Part shown: piece after piece, positions 26,956 to 38,411 of the stretch
Layout: the number at the start of each line of letters is the position of its first letter
How positions within the stretch are numbered: position 1 is the first letter of the stretch
NCBI GenBank assembly: GCA_937125225.1
Contig: CAKZLE010000006.1
Location: 62,001-126,000 of the forward strand
From: an uncultured Spirochaetia bacterium
GTDB taxonomy: Bacteria; Spirochaetota; Spirochaetia; CAKZLE01
Reading direction: 5' to 3'
DNA: 64,000 nt
Program-made: the position numbers and the translations under genes
Notes under the pieces: generated by a model
What the model saw: the letters and a program-made list of their open reading frames with translations, nothing else
What the model was told of the DNA's origin: nothing
The model's database searches: none

Positions 26956-28000
26956 AAGGGTCCCATGGGTAATCATCAGCTTTCTTAGGATCAAGTTCCT
27001 TTGGGATACAGAAGAACCGGTTATCTACACCAGAGAGCCCTATCACATTAAGGAATCTTCTTCCAATAAGATCTTTCAATAGTTCTGAATCAATCTTATC
27101 AGCTAAAAGCTTCTGGACAAGTCGAACATAGCCGGTGAATCCAGGAATTCCGGAGGCACCTGCACGCTTATCCTCTAGGGTATGCGGTGCATGATCACTC
27201 TCTATCCAGTCTATATCCCCATGAATCAGCTGAGAGTAGAGTTTCAGCTGTGAAGCCCTATCCCGTAACGGAGGGTTCATCTTCATAAGATTTCCATTAT
27301 GATCCACATCATCATTGTTTAGTAGAGCGTGATGAGGAGTCACACCACAGGTGATCTTGAAACACAGATCACCTGATTTGATCTCTTTTATCAACTCAAC
27401 CGTGTCAGGATGGCTGACATGACAGATATGAAGGGTACCGGAGAATCCAGTCTCAATCGCATGAGTGAGCTGGTCCTTGACGGACTGCAACTCTGCCACA
27501 GAAGGCCTTGCATCACCGTGAGTCTCAGGTCTATCGATATCCCAGAGTTCAGGATGCATGAGAGATTCCTTCTCACAGTGAACTGCAAGGATCCCCTCAT
27601 ATCCGGAATCGGCAAGCTGCCTATAGATTGCTCTTTGTGCATCTTCTTCAGTTATTCCCATATTTCCGGTGGAATGTCCGGCAAAGAGTTTGAAACCGAT
27701 GACCGTCGGAAAGAACTCATCATAGAGTTCTAAGGCCTCAGTTCGTTGCTCCCTATCATGAGTCAGACCTGTATAGATGCCATACAGTATATCTCCGGGA
27801 CCTAAAGAGAGCTTCTTAAGAGCCTCTCCAGCATCAGCTATCCTATGGACGATCGCATCCCGACAAGTCAGGACAGGAGATGTATTGGGCATCTCGAATA
27901 GACCATTGATCCCGCTTCGATAGGCAGTACCTATCCCATGAAGGAGAGTCTCTTTATTAGACTGTTCCCAATCTCTGAGATGCACATGAGGATCTATCAT
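26936..28000 (-). CDS. pyrC: Dihydroorotase
   Basis: A 354-residue zinc amidohydrolase that cyclises N-carbamoyl-aspartate to dihydroorotate, the third pyrimidine step. The metal-binding HVHLRD motif is at residues 5-10, with downstream conserved residues in EMPNTSP, FKLFAGHSTG, CHVSHPD and ESDHAPHTLEDK. Its ATG overlaps the pyrDK stop by 4 bases (ATGA), with GGAG 5 bases upstream. It is the last gene of the pyr operon. The 3' end overlaps the convergent response-regulator gene by 20 bases, and no terminator is seen. Confidence 0.92.
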   Translation of the reverse strand: MIDPHVHLRDWEQSNKETLLHGIGTAYRSGINGLFEMPNTSPVLTCRDAIVHRIADAGEALKKLSLGPGDILYGIYTGLTHDREQRTEALELYDEFFPTVIGFKLFAGHSTGNMGITEEDAQRAIYRQLADSGYEGILAVHCEKESLMHPELWDIDRPETHGDARPSVAELQSVKDQLTHAIETGFSGTLHICHVSHPDTVELIKEIKSGDLCFKITCGVTPHHALLNNDDVDHNGNLMKMNPPLRDRASQLKLYSQLIHGDIDWIESDHAPHTLEDKRAGASGIPGFTGYVRLVQKLLADKIDSELLKDLIGRRFLNVIGLSGVDNRFFCIPKELDPKKADDYPWDPFRYLLT

Positions 28001-29712
28001 AAGAGCTCCGGTGCATGTTCTTTGAGAAAATCTAGTCGAACGAAGGTTCCATACTGACAGGTAAGTCTATCACCACAGGCACATTCTCCACACATACCAA
28101 TACCACAGAGGCTCGGTCTCTCCATAGAGAGAAAGATCTTATCATCTGCAAGACCTCTGCGACTCATGTTATCTGCTGCGATACTCATGAAGATCTCTGG
28201 TCCGATGGTATAGAAGGCACAATCATCAGAAATGTTGAGAGTCTTCTCCATCTCAGCGATGACCCGGCCTGGCACACCATCATCATACACGGGAACGAAG
28301 GTCCCATATTCACTCAATTCATCTTCGAGGAGAGCCTTTTGAGAATCTTCCTCCTGACCAGAAGCCCCATAGTAGCAGGTGATCTTCGTACCATCTTCTT
28401 TCAACCTTTTGACAAGCGAGGGAACCACTGCGATACCTGTCCCGCCTGCAAGGATCACTGCCTCTTGAGTCTTTGCAGTCTCAACAGGTTCGCCATAGAC
28501 ACCTCTCACATAGAGTTGATCCCCTACCGCTAACTCCATCATCGCATGGGTGAACTCACCCCGGTCCTTGATGATGAAGGTAAGTGGTTCAGACTCTGCT
28601 ATGGAAAAAGGCTTCTCACCGATTCCTGGTAACCATATGAAAGCATACTGACCCGGTCCACAATCGAGGGTACCATCAGTATAGAAGATCTTTACACCAG
28701 GACTGTGCTCGATGATCCTCTCAATCGTAAAGGGTTCGAATCTCATTTGTTGATGATCACAGAGATAACTACTTCCTGTATCTTTACCTGACTCACAGTC
28801 ATCCAAGAGGGCTGAAGTATAGCTTCCCCAGTCTCTTTGGTGAACCCGTCCGAATGCACTACCGATCCCAATCGTATCAGCACCTGCTGATTTCATTCGT
28901 TTCACATCTTCGAAGTTCGAGACACCCCCCATACCTATGATGGGATATTCCTCACCGATCGCGGATCTGATCTGAGAGATGGCATCGATCGCTCGATCCT
29001 TGACCCATTCACCACTCATACCACCCTTACCACCAATCTTATTATTGAGTATGGGTCTTTGAGAATGTTCTTCAAGATAAACTTCAGGGCCGACAGTATT
29101 GATTGCAGAAATCCCATCAGCCCCGGCATCGATAAGAGCCTTGGCGATACTCCCAATATCCTCGACATTTGGTGTCAGCTTTGGGATGATCAGAGCAGGA
29201 AAATCATCTCCAACCGCCTCTCTGATCCTATTCATATATTCCCTAGCAATATTCTGATCACAACCGATACTAGCTCCGAACCCCGCAGAAGCATGGGGAC
29301 AGGAGAAGTTGAGTTCGATCAGATCAGCAACGGGAGCAAAGGCTTTGACTAGTGTGATAAAATCTTCGGGAGTAGAGGCTGAGACAGATACATTCAAGAA
29401 TGCTCTCATATCGATCCTCTCTCTGAGATCATTCAACTCCTTTAGAGCGACTTCCATCCCGGGGTTCTTCAATCCTACAGAATTTCCAAAGTCCCCTGCT
29501 CCGATCTCAGTGATGATCGGTTCACGGTTTCCGCTGTTAGGAACCACCTGATAACTTTTAGTCGTGATCAATCCTATAGCAGGAAGCTCGTGATCAATAA
29601 ACTCAACGAGCCTTGTCTTTGTGGAGGCTACCCCTGATACAGTACCTAGGATGATATCTCCTCTCCAATGAGCTCCACTCAACTGCTGTTTTATATACTC
29701 TTTGCCTCTCAC
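27997..29712 (-). CDS. Dihydroorotate dehydrogenase, fused catalytic (PyrDB) and electron-transfer (PyrK) subunits
   Basis: A 571-residue fusion. Residues 1 to about 305 are a class 1B dihydroorotate dehydrogenase with the FMN barrel and the LNFSCPHA catalytic Cys motif. Residues about 310-571 are a PyrK-type flavodoxin-reductase fold with an R-P-x-S/T-like flavin site (KPFSIAE), an NAD site (AGGTGIAV) and the [2Fe-2S] cysteines in CGIGMCGECACG and a later Cys in LTCQYGTF. The unit should use NAD+ as acceptor. In most bacteria PyrD and PyrK are separate and form a heterotetramer. Here one polypeptide encodes both. The start is a GTG with AGGGAG 7 bases upstream. Confidence 0.88.
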   Translation of the reverse strand: MRGKEYIKQQLSGAHWRGDIILGTVSGVASTKTRLVEFIDHELPAIGLITTKSYQVVPNSGNREPIITEIGAGDFGNSVGLKNPGMEVALKELNDLRERIDMRAFLNVSVSASTPEDFITLVKAFAPVADLIELNFSCPHASAGFGASIGCDQNIAREYMNRIREAVGDDFPALIIPKLTPNVEDIGSIAKALIDAGADGISAINTVGPEVYLEEHSQRPILNNKIGGKGGMSGEWVKDRAIDAISQIRSAIGEEYPIIGMGGVSNFEDVKRMKSAGADTIGIGSAFGRVHQRDWGSYTSALLDDCESGKDTGSSYLCDHQQMRFEPFTIERIIEHSPGVKIFYTDGTLDCGPGQYAFIWLPGIGEKPFSIAESEPLTFIIKDRGEFTHAMMELAVGDQLYVRGVYGEPVETAKTQEAVILAGGTGIAVVPSLVKRLKEDGTKITCYYGASGQEEDSQKALLEDELSEYGTFVPVYDDGVPGRVIAEMEKTLNISDDCAFYTIGPEIFMSIAADNMSRRGLADDKIFLSMERPSLCGIGMCGECACGDRLTCQYGTFVRLDFLKEHAPELL

Positions 29713-32940: not shown

Positions 32941-32970
32941 AAAAAAAACGTCGGTAATAATTACCGACGT
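32941..32970 (-). terminator. Attenuator (intrinsic terminator) in the pyr operon leader
   Basis: On the minus strand, an 11-base perfect stem (32948-32958 paired with 32960-32970, one-base loop, in practice a 9-10 bp stem with a small loop) is followed by eight T residues. It lies upstream of the pyrBI start, so it must be read through to express the operon. Confidence 0.75.
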
Positions 32971-33051
32971 CTATATATTGATCATAGAAAACAATGACTG
33001 GACTACACGAGTGCAGCCTGATGTATCATATCGTCTTCTGATTCTATTCAT
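32971..33051 (-). CDS. Predicted pyr operon leader peptide
   Basis: A 26-codon ORF (ATG at 33051, stop TAG at 32973-32971) whose stop codon touches the 5' arm of the attenuator hairpin. Five of its first fifteen residues are Arg and the codons before the stop are U-rich (Leu-Phe-Ser). An AGGGAAGAG lies about 6-14 bases upstream of the ATG, weak but usable. The arrangement matches the E. coli pyrBI leader, where a ribosome close behind RNA polymerase blocks the terminator when UTP is low. The sequence is not like the E. coli peptide. The ORF could be fortuitous. Confidence 0.45.
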   Translation of the reverse strand: MNRIRRRYDTSGCTRVVQSLFSMINI

Positions 33052-33085
33052 TAATATCTCTTCCCTTTGCAAATTCAATGTAAAC

Positions 33086-33115
33086 ATTGTATCAGATTTT
33101 TAGCGAATATATCAA
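33086..33115 (-). promoter_or_regulatory. pyr operon promoter
   Basis: TTGATA (33115-33110) and TACAAT (33091-33086) are separated by 18 bases. The predicted start near 33079 gives a leader of about 110 bases before the attenuator. No PyrR-type binding loop was seen. Confidence 0.6.
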
Positions 33116-33258: not shown

Positions 33259-34713
33259 ATGTCAAAACTCCTTATGAAAAAACGTATGTTCAGTATAGTG
33301 ATAATTCTACTTTTCCCCTCATTCTTATTTGTCAGCCTTCTCAATTATTATGTCCAGAGAGATGCGATCAAAGATGAATTGATAAATTCATCACTTCCAT
33401 TAGTTCGAGATTATATCTATGACCATATATCAGATAATCTAGAAGGGCCAATTCTTACATCAAGACTCATGGCACGAGATACGTTCTTAGTGAATTGGGC
33501 AATAGCAGGCGAACTCGATATCTCAGAGATTCAAAACTATTTAAGGACGATTAAAACAGATCATGATCTTTCATCAACTTTTTTCGTATCAGCTATGACT
33601 AATCAGTATTACAGCTATGAGGGAGTCCATAAAACGATCTCAGAAGGTGATCCACATGATACCTGGTATTATGACTTCGTCAATTCAGGGAATGCAATTG
33701 CTTTTGACGTTGACTCTGATGAAGTACTTAATGGAACTTTGACAATATTCATCAATGTGAGAGTAGTAGATGACCAGGGGACGTTCCTAGGGGTCACAGG
33801 TGTTGGAATAGAGATGACTGATATATCTTCCCTATTAGCAGAGACCCAAGTCGTGTATGGACGAGACATCTTTATGATCGATTCTGCAGGGTTGATTCAA
33901 GCCCATTCAGATTTTAGTAAAATCGAAAAGACATCCATCTATGATATGGAAGGACTGCAAAACATAGCAGCAACACTATTGTCATCTATTGAGGGAACAA
34001 TCTCTGATGAATATGTAGTACAGAGAGGAACTGTCATATTTACAGCGAAATATTTAGAGAATATCGACTGGTTCATCGTTGTTCAACAGGACTTGGAAAA
34101 CTCTTTACGATTAGCCCGAAAGAATCTTCTAATTAGTATTCTCATCGGTGTCACAGTCTCAATAATCATCACTCTTTTAAGTATGGCTATATTGAAGACC
34201 TACCAAAAAGAGGTTACAAAACTTACCATAACAGACCATTTGACTGGCGCCTTCAATCGTTTATATATTGAGAGTATTCTCTTACAAGAGATTGGAAGAG
34301 GTAAACGATATAAATATCCTCTAGCAATTTTCATGATCGACCTTGACCAGTTCAAGGAGATAAACGATAGTTTTGGACATGATGTCGGAGACACAATCCT
34401 CAAACAGTTCGTTACCCTATTCAAAGACCACCTTAGACAAACTGATATCTTTGCTCGCTGGGGTGGAGATGAGTTCATTGCAGTATTACCCCATACGAAT
34501 AGACAGGAGGCAAGGTTACTTGCAAACCGTTGTTTGAAGTTGGTGAGAGCTGCAAACTACTCAAATAATATCGCTCTTCGAATAAGTATCGGTGCTACAA
34601 CAATATTAGAGACTGATACCCCTCAATCTCTTGTTAATCGAGCAGATGAGGCCCTCTACTACGTGAAGAAACATGGAAAGAACAGTTATCATTTCTTGAG
34701 TATCTCTGAATGA
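33259..34713 (+). CDS. Cache-domain diguanylate cyclase
   Basis: A 484-residue membrane protein. TM1 spans residues about 10-26, followed by a periplasmic region of about 250 residues resembling a Cache sensor, then TM2 near residues 295-315. A complete GGDEF domain fills the rest: FMIDLDQFKEINDSFGHDVGD, then RWGGDEF (active-site motif intact) and an R-Q-T-D inhibitory site five residues upstream of GGDEF. It should make c-di-GMP in response to an extracellular ligand. It diverges from the pyr operon. The ATG at 33259 lacks a ribosome-binding site. It ends 73 bases before a hairpin shared with the small outer-membrane gene array. Confidence 0.88.
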   Translation: MSKLLMKKRMFSIVIILLFPSFLFVSLLNYYVQRDAIKDELINSSLPLVRDYIYDHISDNLEGPILTSRLMARDTFLVNWAIAGELDISEIQNYLRTIKTDHDLSSTFFVSAMTNQYYSYEGVHKTISEGDPHDTWYYDFVNSGNAIAFDVDSDEVLNGTLTIFINVRVVDDQGTFLGVTGVGIEMTDISSLLAETQVVYGRDIFMIDSAGLIQAHSDFSKIEKTSIYDMEGLQNIAATLLSSIEGTISDEYVVQRGTVIFTAKYLENIDWFIVVQQDLENSLRLARKNLLISILIGVTVSIIITLLSMAILKTYQKEVTKLTITDHLTGAFNRLYIESILLQEIGRGKRYKYPLAIFMIDLDQFKEINDSFGHDVGDTILKQFVTLFKDHLRQTDIFARWGGDEFIAVLPHTNRQEARLLANRCLKLVRAANYSNNIALRISIGATTILETDTPQSLVNRADEALYYVKKHGKNSYHFLSISE

Positions 34714-34878: not shown

Positions 34879-35466
34879 CTAGAAGATTGCAAACATAGCA
34901 GAGACACCAAATAGACCTGTAGGATTCTCGAAGAGCGTTGCAGCCTCGAAGTCCCCGATATTTTCTAGTGATACATTAGTGTCCATGATAGCCGAAGCGC
35001 CAATAGATAGATCACCAAGTTCTATATCTGCAGTCAATCGCAGGTTCAGTCCCCAATTCATGGGATCTTCATCCAGTCCATCAATCACGTTCTCATCTCC
35101 AAGATTCACTGTGAATTTAGGTCCTGCTGATGCACCTAATCTCAGTATATCAAATAGAGACATCGACAGTCCTGCATTCGCATACACATCAAGTGCCACA
35201 GCAGAATAATCATCTTCTAGTGCTGTCACCAACGCTAGCGCATTCACTTCGATAACTGACAGATTCATTCTGATATCAGCGCCATAAGTGAAGCTCTCTA
35301 GGCCAATCCCGTCTACATCTATTCCCCAGTTTGGTGAATCAAAATCCAATGTGGTATTCATCATTGCAGTTGGTCCTACTCTAAGACCAATCAGATCCAC
35401 AGCAAAGATTGATGCTGGGACAACCATCAATAATGCCAAAACTACTAAAACTACTCTTTTACTCAT
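34879..35466 (-). CDS. Small secreted, probably outer-membrane beta-barrel protein, array member 1
   Basis: A 195-residue protein with a signal peptide (cleavage near FA/VDL, residues 18-22). The rest is a string of alternating hydrophobic strands with aromatic or Gly turns, like a small beta-barrel, and the C terminus is ...FAIF, ending in Phe as many outer-membrane proteins do. It is the most divergent of the five tandem paralogues: it keeps the G-P-T-A-M motif near residue 35 and Y-G-A-D-I-R, but not the GDG start. The start at 35466 follows GAGGGGG; an upstream TTG is false. Function unknown. Confidence 0.65.
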   Translation of the reverse strand: MSKRVVLVVLALLMVVPASIFAVDLIGLRVGPTAMMNTTLDFDSPNWGIDVDGIGLESFTYGADIRMNLSVIEVNALALVTALEDDYSAVALDVYANAGLSMSLFDILRLGASAGPKFTVNLGDENVIDGLDEDPMNWGLNLRLTADIELGDLSIGASAIMDTNVSLENIGDFEAATLFENPTGLFGVSAMFAIF

Positions 35467-35520
35467 AATAAGCCCCCTCAAAGCTTCGTTTCTATAAAAA
35501 ACTTTTTGTTACGTATATAT

Positions 35521-35549
35521 ATAATACTCATAGAAGCATAAAAGTTACA
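35521..35549 (-). promoter_or_regulatory. Putative promoter, array member 1
   Basis: On the minus strand, TGTAAC (35549-35544) is 17 bases from TATTAT (35526-35521). The TGTAAC hexamer recurs before four of the five paralogues in place of a -35. Confidence 0.35.
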
Positions 35550-35559
35550 GATAAACAGT

Positions 35560-35583
35560 AAAAAAAGCATCCCGAAGGATGCT
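35560..35583 (-). terminator. Terminator after array member 2
   Basis: On the minus strand, AGCATCC and its complement form a 7-bp stem (35583-35577 with 35572-35566) with a tetraloop, followed by a run of T. The stem sequence is identical to that after member 3. Confidence 0.8.
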
Positions 35584-35605
35584 TTCTATGAACAATAAGG
35601 ATTTC

Positions 35606-36118
35606 TTATAGATTTAGAAGTACAGAGACTCCAGCCCACCCATAAAGATTCATGAATTCTGGTTCTTCAACAAATGCTTCCAAGTCTGGTACATAGCCTG
35701 CAAAGAAACCAGTTACCGTTGCTCCACCAAGATTAAGATCAGCTGCCAGCTTTATATTGGATCCAAATTCAATAGCATCTTCTGCATTTTCTACTATCAA
35801 GAAGTTAGGACCTGCTGTCAGACCTAGACCAATAGGTCCAAGATCAATGTTCACACCTGCATTGACAAATGCCAAGATGATACCATCAGCAGCGACATAC
35901 GCATTTGTGCTCACCTGGAATAAGCTGAAGTCAGCTCGTGCCTCAACTCCGTAAAACAGATCCTCTGGATCAAATTCAGCAGAACTAGGATCATCAACAT
36001 ACTGTTGTAGGGTTGCCCCTGATGAATTCAATACTGATGGTCCAATTGAAAGACCTGCTGCAAATACCAAACCTGTGAACAATAGAAATACTAAAACTAC
36101 TAATAATGATTTTTTCAT
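35606..36118 (-). CDS. Small secreted, probably outer-membrane protein, array member 2
   Basis: A 170-residue protein with a typical signal peptide (MKKSLLVVLVFLLF..., cleavage near VFAA/GLS). The mature part has the shared core: Y-G-V-E-A-R-A-D-F-S-L-F-Q-V-S-T-N-A, then N-A-G-V-N-I-D-L-G-P-I-G-L-G-L, a KL-A-A-D-L-N-L segment and a C-terminal V-S-V-L-L-N-L. Spacing of alternating residues suggests a small barrel. It is close to members 3-5 but shorter in the N-terminal loop. AGGAGAGAG precedes the ATG. Function unknown. Confidence 0.7.
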   Translation of the reverse strand: MKKSLLVVLVFLLFTGLVFAAGLSIGPSVLNSSGATLQQYVDDPSSAEFDPEDLFYGVEARADFSLFQVSTNAYVAADGIILAFVNAGVNIDLGPIGLGLTAGPNFLIVENAEDAIEFGSNIKLAADLNLGGATVTGFFAGYVPDLEAFVEEPEFMNLYGWAGVSVLLNL

Positions 36119-36146
36119 AAACTCTCTCCTCTATGTGATTCATAAG

Positions 36147-36176
36147 TTTACACAACTCAGCATCCAATTAGTTACA
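36147..36176 (-). promoter_or_regulatory. Putative promoter, array member 2
   Basis: On the minus strand, TGTAAC (36176-36171) is 18 bases from TGTAAA (36152-36147). The -10 is a weak match. Confidence 0.3.
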
Positions 36177-36177
36177 A

Positions 36178-36203
36178 AAAAAAGCATCCCATAGGATGCT
36201 TTT
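36178..36203 (-). terminator. Terminator after array member 3
   Basis: On the minus strand, a stem of AGCATCC with its complement and a tetraloop (36200-36194, 36189-36183) is followed by a T-run. It shares its stem with the terminator after member 2. Confidence 0.8.
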
Positions 36204-36226
36204 TCAAGCCTCTAAAAGTAAAGAAT

Positions 36227-36739
36227 TTAGAGTTGAATTAAAACTGAAGCTCCTACAACTCCGACAAGATCATCTGGAGTCTCAACTAGGTCTGGTTCAT
36301 CAGTATAACCAATAACAAAACCACTTAATATCATTGATCCTAAGATCAGATCCACATTCGCTTTTGCTGAATAATACTCACCAAATTCAATATCTGAAAA
36401 ATCTGTAACATATGTGGCTCCACCTGAAACTCCAAGACCAATAATACCTAGATCAAGATACACTCCAGCATTGACAAAGCCTTCAATTAATTCATTAGAA
36501 TAGAATGCATTAGTACTTACTTGGAATATACTCAAATCAAGTCTTACTTCTCCACCATAATATAGGTTCTCAGATGAAATACTCTCTGCTACCTCTTCTG
36601 GGTAATCGATAATGTCACCTAAGGTGAACCCATCTAGTGCCATTGCTGTTGGACCAAACGACAATCCATCACCTGCGAACACTGCTGCCGGTATAGCCAA
36701 CAATATTACTATCATAATCAAAACCATTCTCTTTTTCAT
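36227..36739 (-). CDS. Small secreted, probably outer-membrane protein, array member 3
   Basis: A 170-residue protein with a signal peptide (MKKRMVLIMIVILL, cleavage near VFA/GDG). Core motifs shared with members 2, 4 and 5: LSFGPTAM, Y-Y-G-G-E-V-R-L-D-L-S-I-F-Q-V, NAGVYLDLGIIGLGV, LI-L-G-S, and C-terminal G-A-S-V-L-I-Q-L. Closest to member 4, with an almost identical signal peptide, which points to recent duplication. AGGGGGGAGAG precedes the ATG. Function unknown. Confidence 0.72.
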   Translation of the reverse strand: MKKRMVLIMIVILLAIPAAVFAGDGLSFGPTAMALDGFTLGDIIDYPEEVAESISSENLYYGGEVRLDLSIFQVSTNAFYSNELIEGFVNAGVYLDLGIIGLGVSGGATYVTDFSDIEFGEYYSAKANVDLILGSMILSGFVIGYTDEPDLVETPDDLVGVVGASVLIQL

Positions 36740-36802
36740 GTCTCTCCCCCATTTTTAAAATCATTAACTCGTATAGAAAACTGCTTCCTTACTACTATTA
36801 AG

Positions 36803-36832
36803 CTTATACAACGAATAATCTCTGCCAGTTCA
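36803..36832 (-). promoter_or_regulatory. Putative promoter, array member 3
   Basis: On the minus strand, TGTATAAG holds a -10 (TATAAG, 36808-36803) preceded by TG. TGAACT (36832-36827) lies 18 bases upstream. TGTAAC itself is not present here. Confidence 0.4.
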
Positions 36833-36947
36833 GATTTGACTATTCATCCTGCTAAGACAATTATTCAGTAAGTACTAACATTATACCTAATCAGTAAAAG
36901 AATACAAGATAATAGTTTTCTATCTTTGATAATTGCAGAAAGGACTA

Positions 36948-36977
36948 AACAAAAAGCACCTTATGTTCAGGTGCTTT
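36948..36977 (-). terminator. Terminator after array member 4
   Basis: On the minus strand a 9-bp stem (36977-36969 with 36961-36953) is followed by TTTTTGTTT. Confidence 0.75.
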
Positions 36978-36998
36978 CCTTTAATAGTGAATATCGTA

Positions 36999-37520
36999 TT
37001 ATAGCTGTATTAAGACAGAGGCCCCAATAGCCATATCCATATCTTCATACTCATCAGCAATATTGGTGAGGTCTTCGACTAAGCCTGCTGCATAGGTACT
37101 TAAGATCAATGAACCCAGTCTAAGGTCGGCAGTCGCTTTTACATTATATCCAGTAATCATAGCATCTGAGAAATCAGTTATTACGACTGGTCCAGCTCCA
37201 GCTCCAAAACCTATGATACCAAGATCAAGATAGACTCCTGCATTGGTGTACAGAACTGCTGCACCCAAGTCCTCACTGTATAAGATCTCTGCACCGACCT
37301 GAAATAGGCTCAGATCAAGACGAACCTCTGCACCATAAAGCAGATCCTCAGGATCTATCTCAGGAATCTCTGGAGCCTCTTCCATATCCATGACCTCACC
37401 GATCGTTAAAGGTGTATCGTAGATAGCGGTCATTCCTAGTGATATTCCATCACCTGCGAACAAGGCTGCTGGTACTGCGATCATTACAACTATCATCATC
37501 AAAACCATTCTCTTTTTCAT
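36999..37520 (-). CDS. Small secreted, probably outer-membrane protein, array member 4
   Basis: A 173-residue protein with a signal peptide (MKKRMVLMMIVVMI..., cleavage near LFA/GDG). It has the array's core: ISLGMTAIYDTPLTIGE, D-L-L-Y-G-A-E-V-R-L-D-L-S-L-F-Q-V, NAGVYLDLGIIGFGAGAGP, A-D-L-R-L-G-S and the C-terminal G-A-S-V-L-I-Q-L. It has a longer acidic loop near residues 45-60 (EEAPEIPEIDPEDL). GGGGGGAATGAT precedes the ATG. Function unknown. Confidence 0.72.
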   Translation of the reverse strand: MKKRMVLMMIVVMIAVPAALFAGDGISLGMTAIYDTPLTIGEVMDMEEAPEIPEIDPEDLLYGAEVRLDLSLFQVGAEILYSEDLGAAVLYTNAGVYLDLGIIGFGAGAGPVVITDFSDAMITGYNVKATADLRLGSLILSTYAAGLVEDLTNIADEYEDMDMAIGASVLIQL

Positions 37521-37582
37521 ATCATTCCCCCCATTAAGAAATCTTATTTACTATAACAGAAAATAATTACTTACTTATATAA

Positions 37583-37612
37583 CTTATACAGTTAAAGCTT
37601 TGAAACGTTACA
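37583..37612 (-). promoter_or_regulatory. Putative promoter, array member 4
   Basis: On the minus strand, TGTAAC (37612-37607), 18 bases, then TATAAG (37588-37583) preceded by TG. This is the clearest copy of the array promoter pattern. From 37613 to 37779 I see no gene or structure. Confidence 0.45.
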
Positions 37613-37779
37613 ACATATTTCATGAAGCTCTTATACCCCTCTGTATATAACTCACTTCCAGCCGTTTTTTAATCAGCATGATGAGGACACTCGTATTCCA
37701 ATCACTGAAGAACTCATACCCTTGAAGCCTCTGAACTCTCATAGTTCACATCCAAGACAATCATCCTACAGGGGCCATT

Positions 37780-37809
37780 AAAAAAAGAGACACCTACTCA
37801 GGTGTCTCT
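37780..37809 (-). terminator. Terminator after array member 5
   Basis: On the minus strand a 10-bp stem (AGAGACACCT with its complement, 37809-37800 and 37795-37786) with a 4-base loop is followed by a T-run. Confidence 0.8.
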
Positions 37810-37829
37810 CATATGATTAGTGGAAAGTC

Positions 37830-38411
37830 TTATAGTTGGAATAGTACAGATAGACCTGCCTGGCCCATCATATTCTCAATGTCTGCTTCATCAGCAAAAG
37901 CTTCTAGATCATTGGTATAACCCATGAAATAGGCACTGAATATGGTTGATCCCAGAATAAGATCAGCTTCAGCTTTTACATTATATCCTAGACTAAAGGG
38001 TTCAAATTCATCCACAGCTTCATCTAGAAGTACCAAGTAGCGAGGTCCTGCACCTAGTCCAAGACCTACAATCCCAAGATCGGCATAGATACCAAGATTC
38101 GCAGATGCCTCTAATGAGGGGCCAAGATCAATATATGAAGGGCCAATCATTCTAACTTCTGCGTAAGTAGTTGGGCTATATATAGCATTCACACTAGCCT
38201 GAAAGATACCAATATCTAATCTAGCCTCAGCACCATAAGAGAAGTTTTCTGGATTGAATACGACTTCATCATAGTTCTCTACCAGATAACCAAGGGTAAC
38301 CGGTGTATTATACATTGCCGTAGGTCCTACCCAAAGTCCATCACCTGCAAATACAGAAAAAGGTACTGCTAACAATAGGATAGCCATAAGTGTAATCATT
38401 GTTTTCTTCAT
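37830..38411 (-). CDS. Small secreted, probably outer-membrane protein, array member 5
   Basis: A 193-residue protein with a signal peptide (cleavage near VFA/GDG). It keeps VGPTAMYNTPVTLGY, F-S-Y-G-A-E-A-R-L-D-I-G-I-F-Q-A, NLGIYADLGIVGLGLGAGP, A-D-L-I-L-G-S and C-terminal G-L-S-V-L-F-Q-L. It is longer than members 2-4 because of a loop around residues 85-105 (MIGPSYIDLGPSLEASA). It is the 5'-most gene on the minus strand in the array. GGAGG precedes the ATG. Function unknown. Confidence 0.72.
   Translation of the reverse strand: MKKTMITLMAILLLAVPFSVFAGDGLWVGPTAMYNTPVTLGYLVENYDEVVFNPENFSYGAEARLDIGIFQASVNAIYSPTTYAEVRMIGPSYIDLGPSLEASANLGIYADLGIVGLGLGAGPRYLVLLDEAVDEFEPFSLGYNVKAEADLILGSTIFSAYFMGYTNDLEAFADEADIENMMGQAGLSVLFQL

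Follow-up and report, generated by a model that had tools for sequence, protein, structure and literature searches.

The window analysed here, a 64 kb stretch of DNA from an uncultured Spirochaetia bacterium, carries a pyrimidine biosynthesis operon, pyrBI-E-F-DK-C, preceded by a short open reading frame (ORF) that ends at an intrinsic terminator. In the order in which they would be transcribed, the features of this locus are:

33134-33106, minus strand: likeliest promoter from a consensus scan, with TTGACC (33134-33129), a spacer of 17 nt, TATATT (33111-33106) and an extended TG
33115-33086, minus strand: TTGATA-18-TACAAT, the promoter of the preliminary description, a 10/12 match to the consensus; probably not the main promoter
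33068-33058, minus strand: weak ribosome-binding site of the leader ORF, AAAGGGAAGAG, read from the sequence
33051-32971, minus strand: leader ORF of 26 codons plus TAG, encoding MNRIRRRYDTSGCTRVVQSLFSMINI; present at the same position in relatives
32997-32981, minus strand: U-rich tract within the leader ORF, with the core UUGUUUUCU at 32994-32986; candidate UTP-sensitive pause region
32972-32946, minus strand: intrinsic terminator hairpin (the putative attenuator), its 5' arm abutting the leader TAG
32948-32941, minus strand: T8 tract of the terminator, read from the sequence
32926-32920, minus strand: ribosome-binding site of pyrBI, AAGGAGG, beyond the terminator, read from the sequence
32914-31331, minus strand: pyrBI, fused catalytic and regulatory chains of aspartate carbamoyltransferase, 527 aa (NCBIfam, Pfam)
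31340-30615, minus strand: pyrE, orotate phosphoribosyltransferase (TIGR00336, PRK00455)
30613-29723, minus strand: pyrF, orotidine-5'-phosphate decarboxylase (TIGR02127, above cut-off)
29712-27997, minus strand: fused pyrD-pyrK, 571 aa (PRK07259 at residues 24-287, PRK00054 at 327-555)
28000-26936, minus strand: pyrC-like dihydroorotase, the last gene of the operon (TIGR00857, E=1.3e-54)

The operon is tight: its genes overlap or sit a few nucleotides apart, and no convincing same-strand terminator was found between them. Of the NCBIfam models, NF009916 (bifunctional catalytic/regulatory) matches pyrBI best, with 779.6 bits, slightly short of its cut-off of 800; Pfam recognizes the domains OTCace_N, OTCace, PyrI and PyrI_C. 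The dihydroorotate dehydrogenase and the electron-transfer subunit (PyrD-PyrK; 27997-29712, minus strand) form one protein. Upstream, the neighbour is a divergent gene for a GGDEF protein (33259-34713, plus strand); because of this orientation there is no other gene to terminate, and the putative attenuator can stop only the pyr leader transcript. The region 34879-38411 (minus strand) holds at least five tandem genes for similar proteins of 170-200 aa with signal-peptide-like starts, for one of which, the one tested, there was no Pfam match; several of these genes have intrinsic terminators 19-24 nt past the stop.

As the preliminary description had it, the 26-codon ORF ends in a TAG that touches the 5' arm of a strong hairpin with a T8 tract, and pyrBI follows. 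The hairpin reads ACGTCGGTAA-TTA-TTACCGACGT before the T8, with a stem of 10 perfect pairs (12 if it takes in bases of the TAG and the T-tract) and a calculated free energy of -14.9 kcal/mol. From the end of the leader ORF to the start of pyrBI there are 57 nt, and from the T-run to the pyrBI ATG 26 nt. Among the 11 terminators in the 64 kb, this is the only one with a short ORF led by a ribosome-binding site in front and a gene behind. In the same genome, no comparable leader was seen by eye in the ~490 nt upstream of carA (G000:C14).

Where would the leader RNA begin? The boxes at 33115-33086, proposed earlier, mostly fall into an alignment gap in the other four leaders of the comparison (L041, L070, L106, L045), and that assignment gives way to the pair at 33134-33106. 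Since TTGACC-17-TATATT lines up in all five leaders (the window and these four), the RNA start is predicted near 33099. The predicted start region, CGCTAAAAATC, has no U-run of the kind used for UTP slippage in E. coli.

The layout is not peculiar to this genome. Two sources supplied the relatives of PyrBI: whole genomes in the class, and contigs of named genomes (Sphaerochaeta, Bullifex, Treponema, and Spirochaetales in large number). Many of the relatives are metagenome assemblies; the cultured ones that have the leader include Sphaerochaeta halotolerans (L061) and Bullifex porci (L077). A terminator lies 18-102 nt before the gene in 100 of 117 distinct upstream regions of spirochaete-type pyrBI, and distant branches are among the other 17, as are loci with another gene running close to pyrBI. 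Removal of leaders more than 80% identical left 78 non-redundant ones, which were searched for an ORF beginning with ATG, with a Shine-Dalgarno match of at least 4 bases and at least 12 codons, and reaching to within 27 nt of the hairpin. Such an ORF occurs in 52 of the 78, against 7.4±2.3 in dinucleotide shuffles (maximum 15 in 200 rounds); when a 5-base Shine-Dalgarno match is required, the figures are 36 and 1.0±1.0. Among the leaders with strong sites, 36 of 37 have no stop up to the hairpin in the frame of the start codon; for the other two frames the counts are 17 and 16. The identical procedure recovers pyrL of E. coli. The leader is thus a real and conserved feature.

In 57 leaders the stops span -73 to +11 nt relative to the start of the 5' arm of the hairpin, negative values lying past that start and positive ones ahead of it: 25 lie before the hairpin, 19 within it and 13 past it. 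The leader set was itself defined by a stop no more than 27 nt from the hairpin, so that only the distribution inside this range, and not its upper limit, is informative; within it, no stop occurs at +12 to +27 nt, although the search admitted them. Alignment of the leader in relatives had been suggested as a check of the stop-to-hairpin distance, and its outcome is mixed: a stop within reach of the ribosome is conserved, but the exact distance is not. Terminators of ordinary genes are placed differently, following the stop by 19, 21, 22, 22, 24 and 27 nt in the window (a small sample, n=6) and by 13-98 nt in the flanks of the relatives (median 20.5, n=12).

These distances can be read against measurements in E. 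coli, where termination fell from ~90% to <10% once a stop had been relocated to a distance of 5 nt from a terminator, and where a ribosome stopping more than 27 nt away no longer represses termination (PMC4824070). By this measure, the terminators of ordinary genes would lie at the edge of the reach of the ribosome or outside it, and that of the pyr leader inside it, which suggests that the leader is placed so that a ribosome masks the hairpin. Earlier work has also taken a short distance between stop and terminator as an indicator of uncoupled transcription (PMC7858274); the 19-27 nt that separate ordinary terminators in the window from their stops match what coupled species should show, an indirect hint from a small sample that translation may be coupled to transcription in these organisms.

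A further conserved trait lies just ahead of the hairpin. In the leaders, the T content increases towards the hairpin, with 0.20 at a distance of 70-79 nt and 0.47 at 10-19 nt. Over the last 30 nt it averages 0.44, and the corresponding stretch ahead of 48 other terminators from these sequences has 0.30 (p=8e-9); the U-rich run that had been anticipated in the leaders of relatives is indeed there. The window's own value is moderate (13 T in 30). UTP-dependent pausing underlies the control of pyrBI and pyrE in E. coli (PMC7818426), and from the base composition together with the nature of the controlled gene we infer that UTP is the signal at this leader as well.

Judged on this comparative sequence evidence, the element is very probably a UTP-sensitive, ribosome-mediated transcription attenuator of the E. 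coli pyrBI/pyrE type. RNA polymerase would start near 33099 and transcribe the leader for the 26-residue peptide, and a ribosome would load on the leader ORF. With ample UTP, the polymerase would pass quickly through the U-rich stretch, so that the terminator would form ahead of the ribosome and transcription would stop before pyrBI. With scarce UTP, the polymerase would be slowed in that stretch and the ribosome would catch up; standing at the stop codon that touches the hairpin, it would cover the 5' arm and allow read-through into pyrBI-E-F-DK-C. The peptide itself would have no role, and only its translation and the position of its stop would matter. Attenuation of the pyrBI type by a trailing ribosome had been proposed in the preliminary description, and the comparison strongly supports it, in that the terminator, the short ORF, the stop within reach and the U-rich run are conserved and PyrR is absent from this genome and from nearly all the relatives. 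Two contrary outcomes had been named, an ORF or stop without conservation and control by PyrR; instead, the layout is conserved in relatives and this genome lacks PyrR.

Is UTP what the ribosome reports? The same device might read the general status of translation or of coupling, or ppGpp and growth rate. The anatomy would be identical, and occlusion by a ribosome is by itself enough to prevent termination (PMC4824070). This reading, however, leaves unexplained both the U-enriched run before the hairpin and the position of the element before pyrBI. No other terminator in the window has the layout. We regard this reading as unlikely, if still the strongest of the alternatives.

Another question concerns the peptide. 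The preliminary description had counted five Arg among its first 15 residues, which is correct, and had suggested that the supply of arginine might also be sensed. Arginine attenuation, or dual sensing, would mean that the outcome changes when ribosomes stall at Arg codons. In favour of this is the composition of the window's peptide, together with an Arg-rich start resembling M-x-R-[KIR]-R-Y-R that recurs in a sub-group of leaders (L048, L050-L052 and L070). Arginine is nevertheless not conserved: the median in the first 15 residues is 1, 11 of the 57 leaders have none, and the maximum of 5 belongs to the window and L070. The nearest relative, L041 (72% PyrBI identity; leader MRIDAMHTNADVHGSQAVVQSVFSMSSYEDRRR), has one Arg in this stretch. 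Between close pairs of leaders, no excess of synonymous changes was found (12 synonymous to 50 nonsynonymous in frame, against 13/48 and 12/51 in the other frames). With the share of synonymous changes in frame no higher than out of frame, the identity of the peptide is under no visible selection; the local match VVQS[LV]FSM between the peptides of the window and L041 is confined to that one pair. There is, moreover, no alternative hairpin that a stalled ribosome could free, and a stall at codons 3-7 would merely keep the terminator intact. The suggestion thus finds no support, and arginine sensing of either form seems very improbable.

Hardly better placed is the idea that the leader ORF works through translational coupling to pyrBI or reinitiation there, with the hairpin as mere mRNA structure: short upstream ORFs can promote reinitiation (PMC4833913), but pyrBI has its own strong AAGGAGG past the hairpin, and throughout the relatives the hairpin is followed by the T-run that marks a terminator. 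We hold this, too, to be highly improbable.

PyrR is the usual control of pyr operons in Bacillota. The genome studied here lacks the gene: its best match scores 32.6 bits, with the cut-off at 138. Of 60 relatives, 57 lack it too, and in the remaining three, which carry it, no full-length match to the PyrBI fusion was obtained. No PyrR site had been noticed at first reading, and none appeared in the Rfam scan at E up to 10, in which the best match of any kind, IS102 RNA (E=0.098), is far under its cut-off and was taken as chance. From the ATG to the hairpin the RNA folds no better than shuffled sequences (mean z 0.06, 57 leaders), and pairing to the 5' arm of the hairpin shows no excess (mean z +0.26). 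These two results argue against switching of the trp-like, riboswitch or PyrR type. For the window, pairing of the purine-rich 5' part of the ORF with its U-rich 3' part into a pause hairpin was considered, and the whole leader there gives a z of -1.9 with the terminator included; the idea was dropped since folds from the ATG to the hairpin do no better than shuffles across the 57 leaders. A terminator/antiterminator controlled by a protein or a ligand (PyrR or a riboswitch), for which the custom of Bacillota and the PyrR genes of three relatives speak, is the least probable reading of all, given the lack here of a PyrR above cut-off, of a full-length fusion match in the PyrR-bearing three, of a near-threshold Rfam match and of conserved leader structure.

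The putative UTP-sensitive attenuator also has variants among the relatives. In L053 and L093 there is no dedicated leader: the end of the upstream gene supplies the stop, 7-8 nt before the hairpin and ~50-80 nt before pyrBI, an arrangement that resembles rph-pyrE of E. coli. Other leaders have no ribosome-binding site, and most of these place the ATG 7-11 nt downstream of the best -10 box (L057, L065, L076, L088, L091, L100, L108, L110, L011, L021, L131, L133, L136), against a median of 22 and a minimum of 15 in the others. Because the ATG follows the -10 box so closely, these RNAs are probably leaderless or nearly so. Finally, two loci in Clostridia assemblies, L103 and L113 (2200-6572), carry a PyrBI nested in the spirochaete tree, together with pyrE, pyrF, pyrD and a leader. 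Their genomes both carry PyrR as well, and one has a second pyrB-pyrI pair. The operon and its attenuator were likely transferred together; a binning error is the alternative.

All these points can be joined in a broader picture, which we put forward tentatively, as it is somewhat more doubtful than probable in its entirety. Across a large branch of spirochaetes, pyrimidine synthesis would generally be governed by coupling-based sensing of UTP, which would have arisen independently of the enterobacterial systems or extremely early with respect to them. A single attenuator would serve nearly the whole pathway, its leader RNA would be nearly leaderless in several lineages, and the self-contained module would have moved with its operon into Clostridia that bear PyrR. 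A PyrR-free sensor of UTP, made of polymerase, ribosome and hairpin alone, would explain how spirochaetes control pyrimidine synthesis, for which no description was found in the literature searched. Nor did that search, which was not exhaustive, yield a report of pyrB attenuation in spirochaetes; an earlier mention is possible. Among riboswitches, just one has been characterized in spirochaetes, a TPP riboswitch of Treponema denticola (PMC10319736).

The element may interest a wider community, since transcription-translation coupling outside the Proteobacteria is disputed (PMC7858274). The proposed mechanism works only with a ribosome trailing closely, and for this reason the attenuator would be a natural reporter of coupling outside that phylum. 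It also offers a contrast that can be put to the test: leader stops no more than 11 nt from the hairpin against ordinary stops at least 13 nt away.

How does the window compare with the systems already known? Attenuation of the pyrBI kind is familiar from E. coli, where its mechanism has been summarised (PMC7818426), and here it would operate in a distant phylum. As in E. coli pyrBI (pyrL), a promoter is followed by a short ORF with a U-rich run and by a GC hairpin with T8, and the E. coli terminator lies ~31-34 nt before pyrB. The differences are several. The ORF of pyrL runs through the hairpin, with its stop 47 nt beyond the point where the 5' arm begins, whereas the window's ORF stops at the arm. 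In E. coli, pyrB and pyrI are separate genes, preceded by an attenuator that serves pyrBI alone; in the window they are fused, and the attenuator precedes pyrBI-E-F-DK-C. The start sequence for UTP slippage of E. coli pyrBI has no counterpart in the window. In the PyrR leaders of Bacillota, pyrimidine nucleotides likewise control a terminator of the pyr operon, but these need PyrR and antiterminator/anti-antiterminator structures, neither of which was found in the window. In rph-pyrE of E. coli, the stop is just before the terminator, which a ribosome standing there would cover. The geometry of the window is nearer to this system than to pyrBI; in E. coli pyrE, a full gene, rph, takes the upstream place that a dedicated short ORF has in the window.
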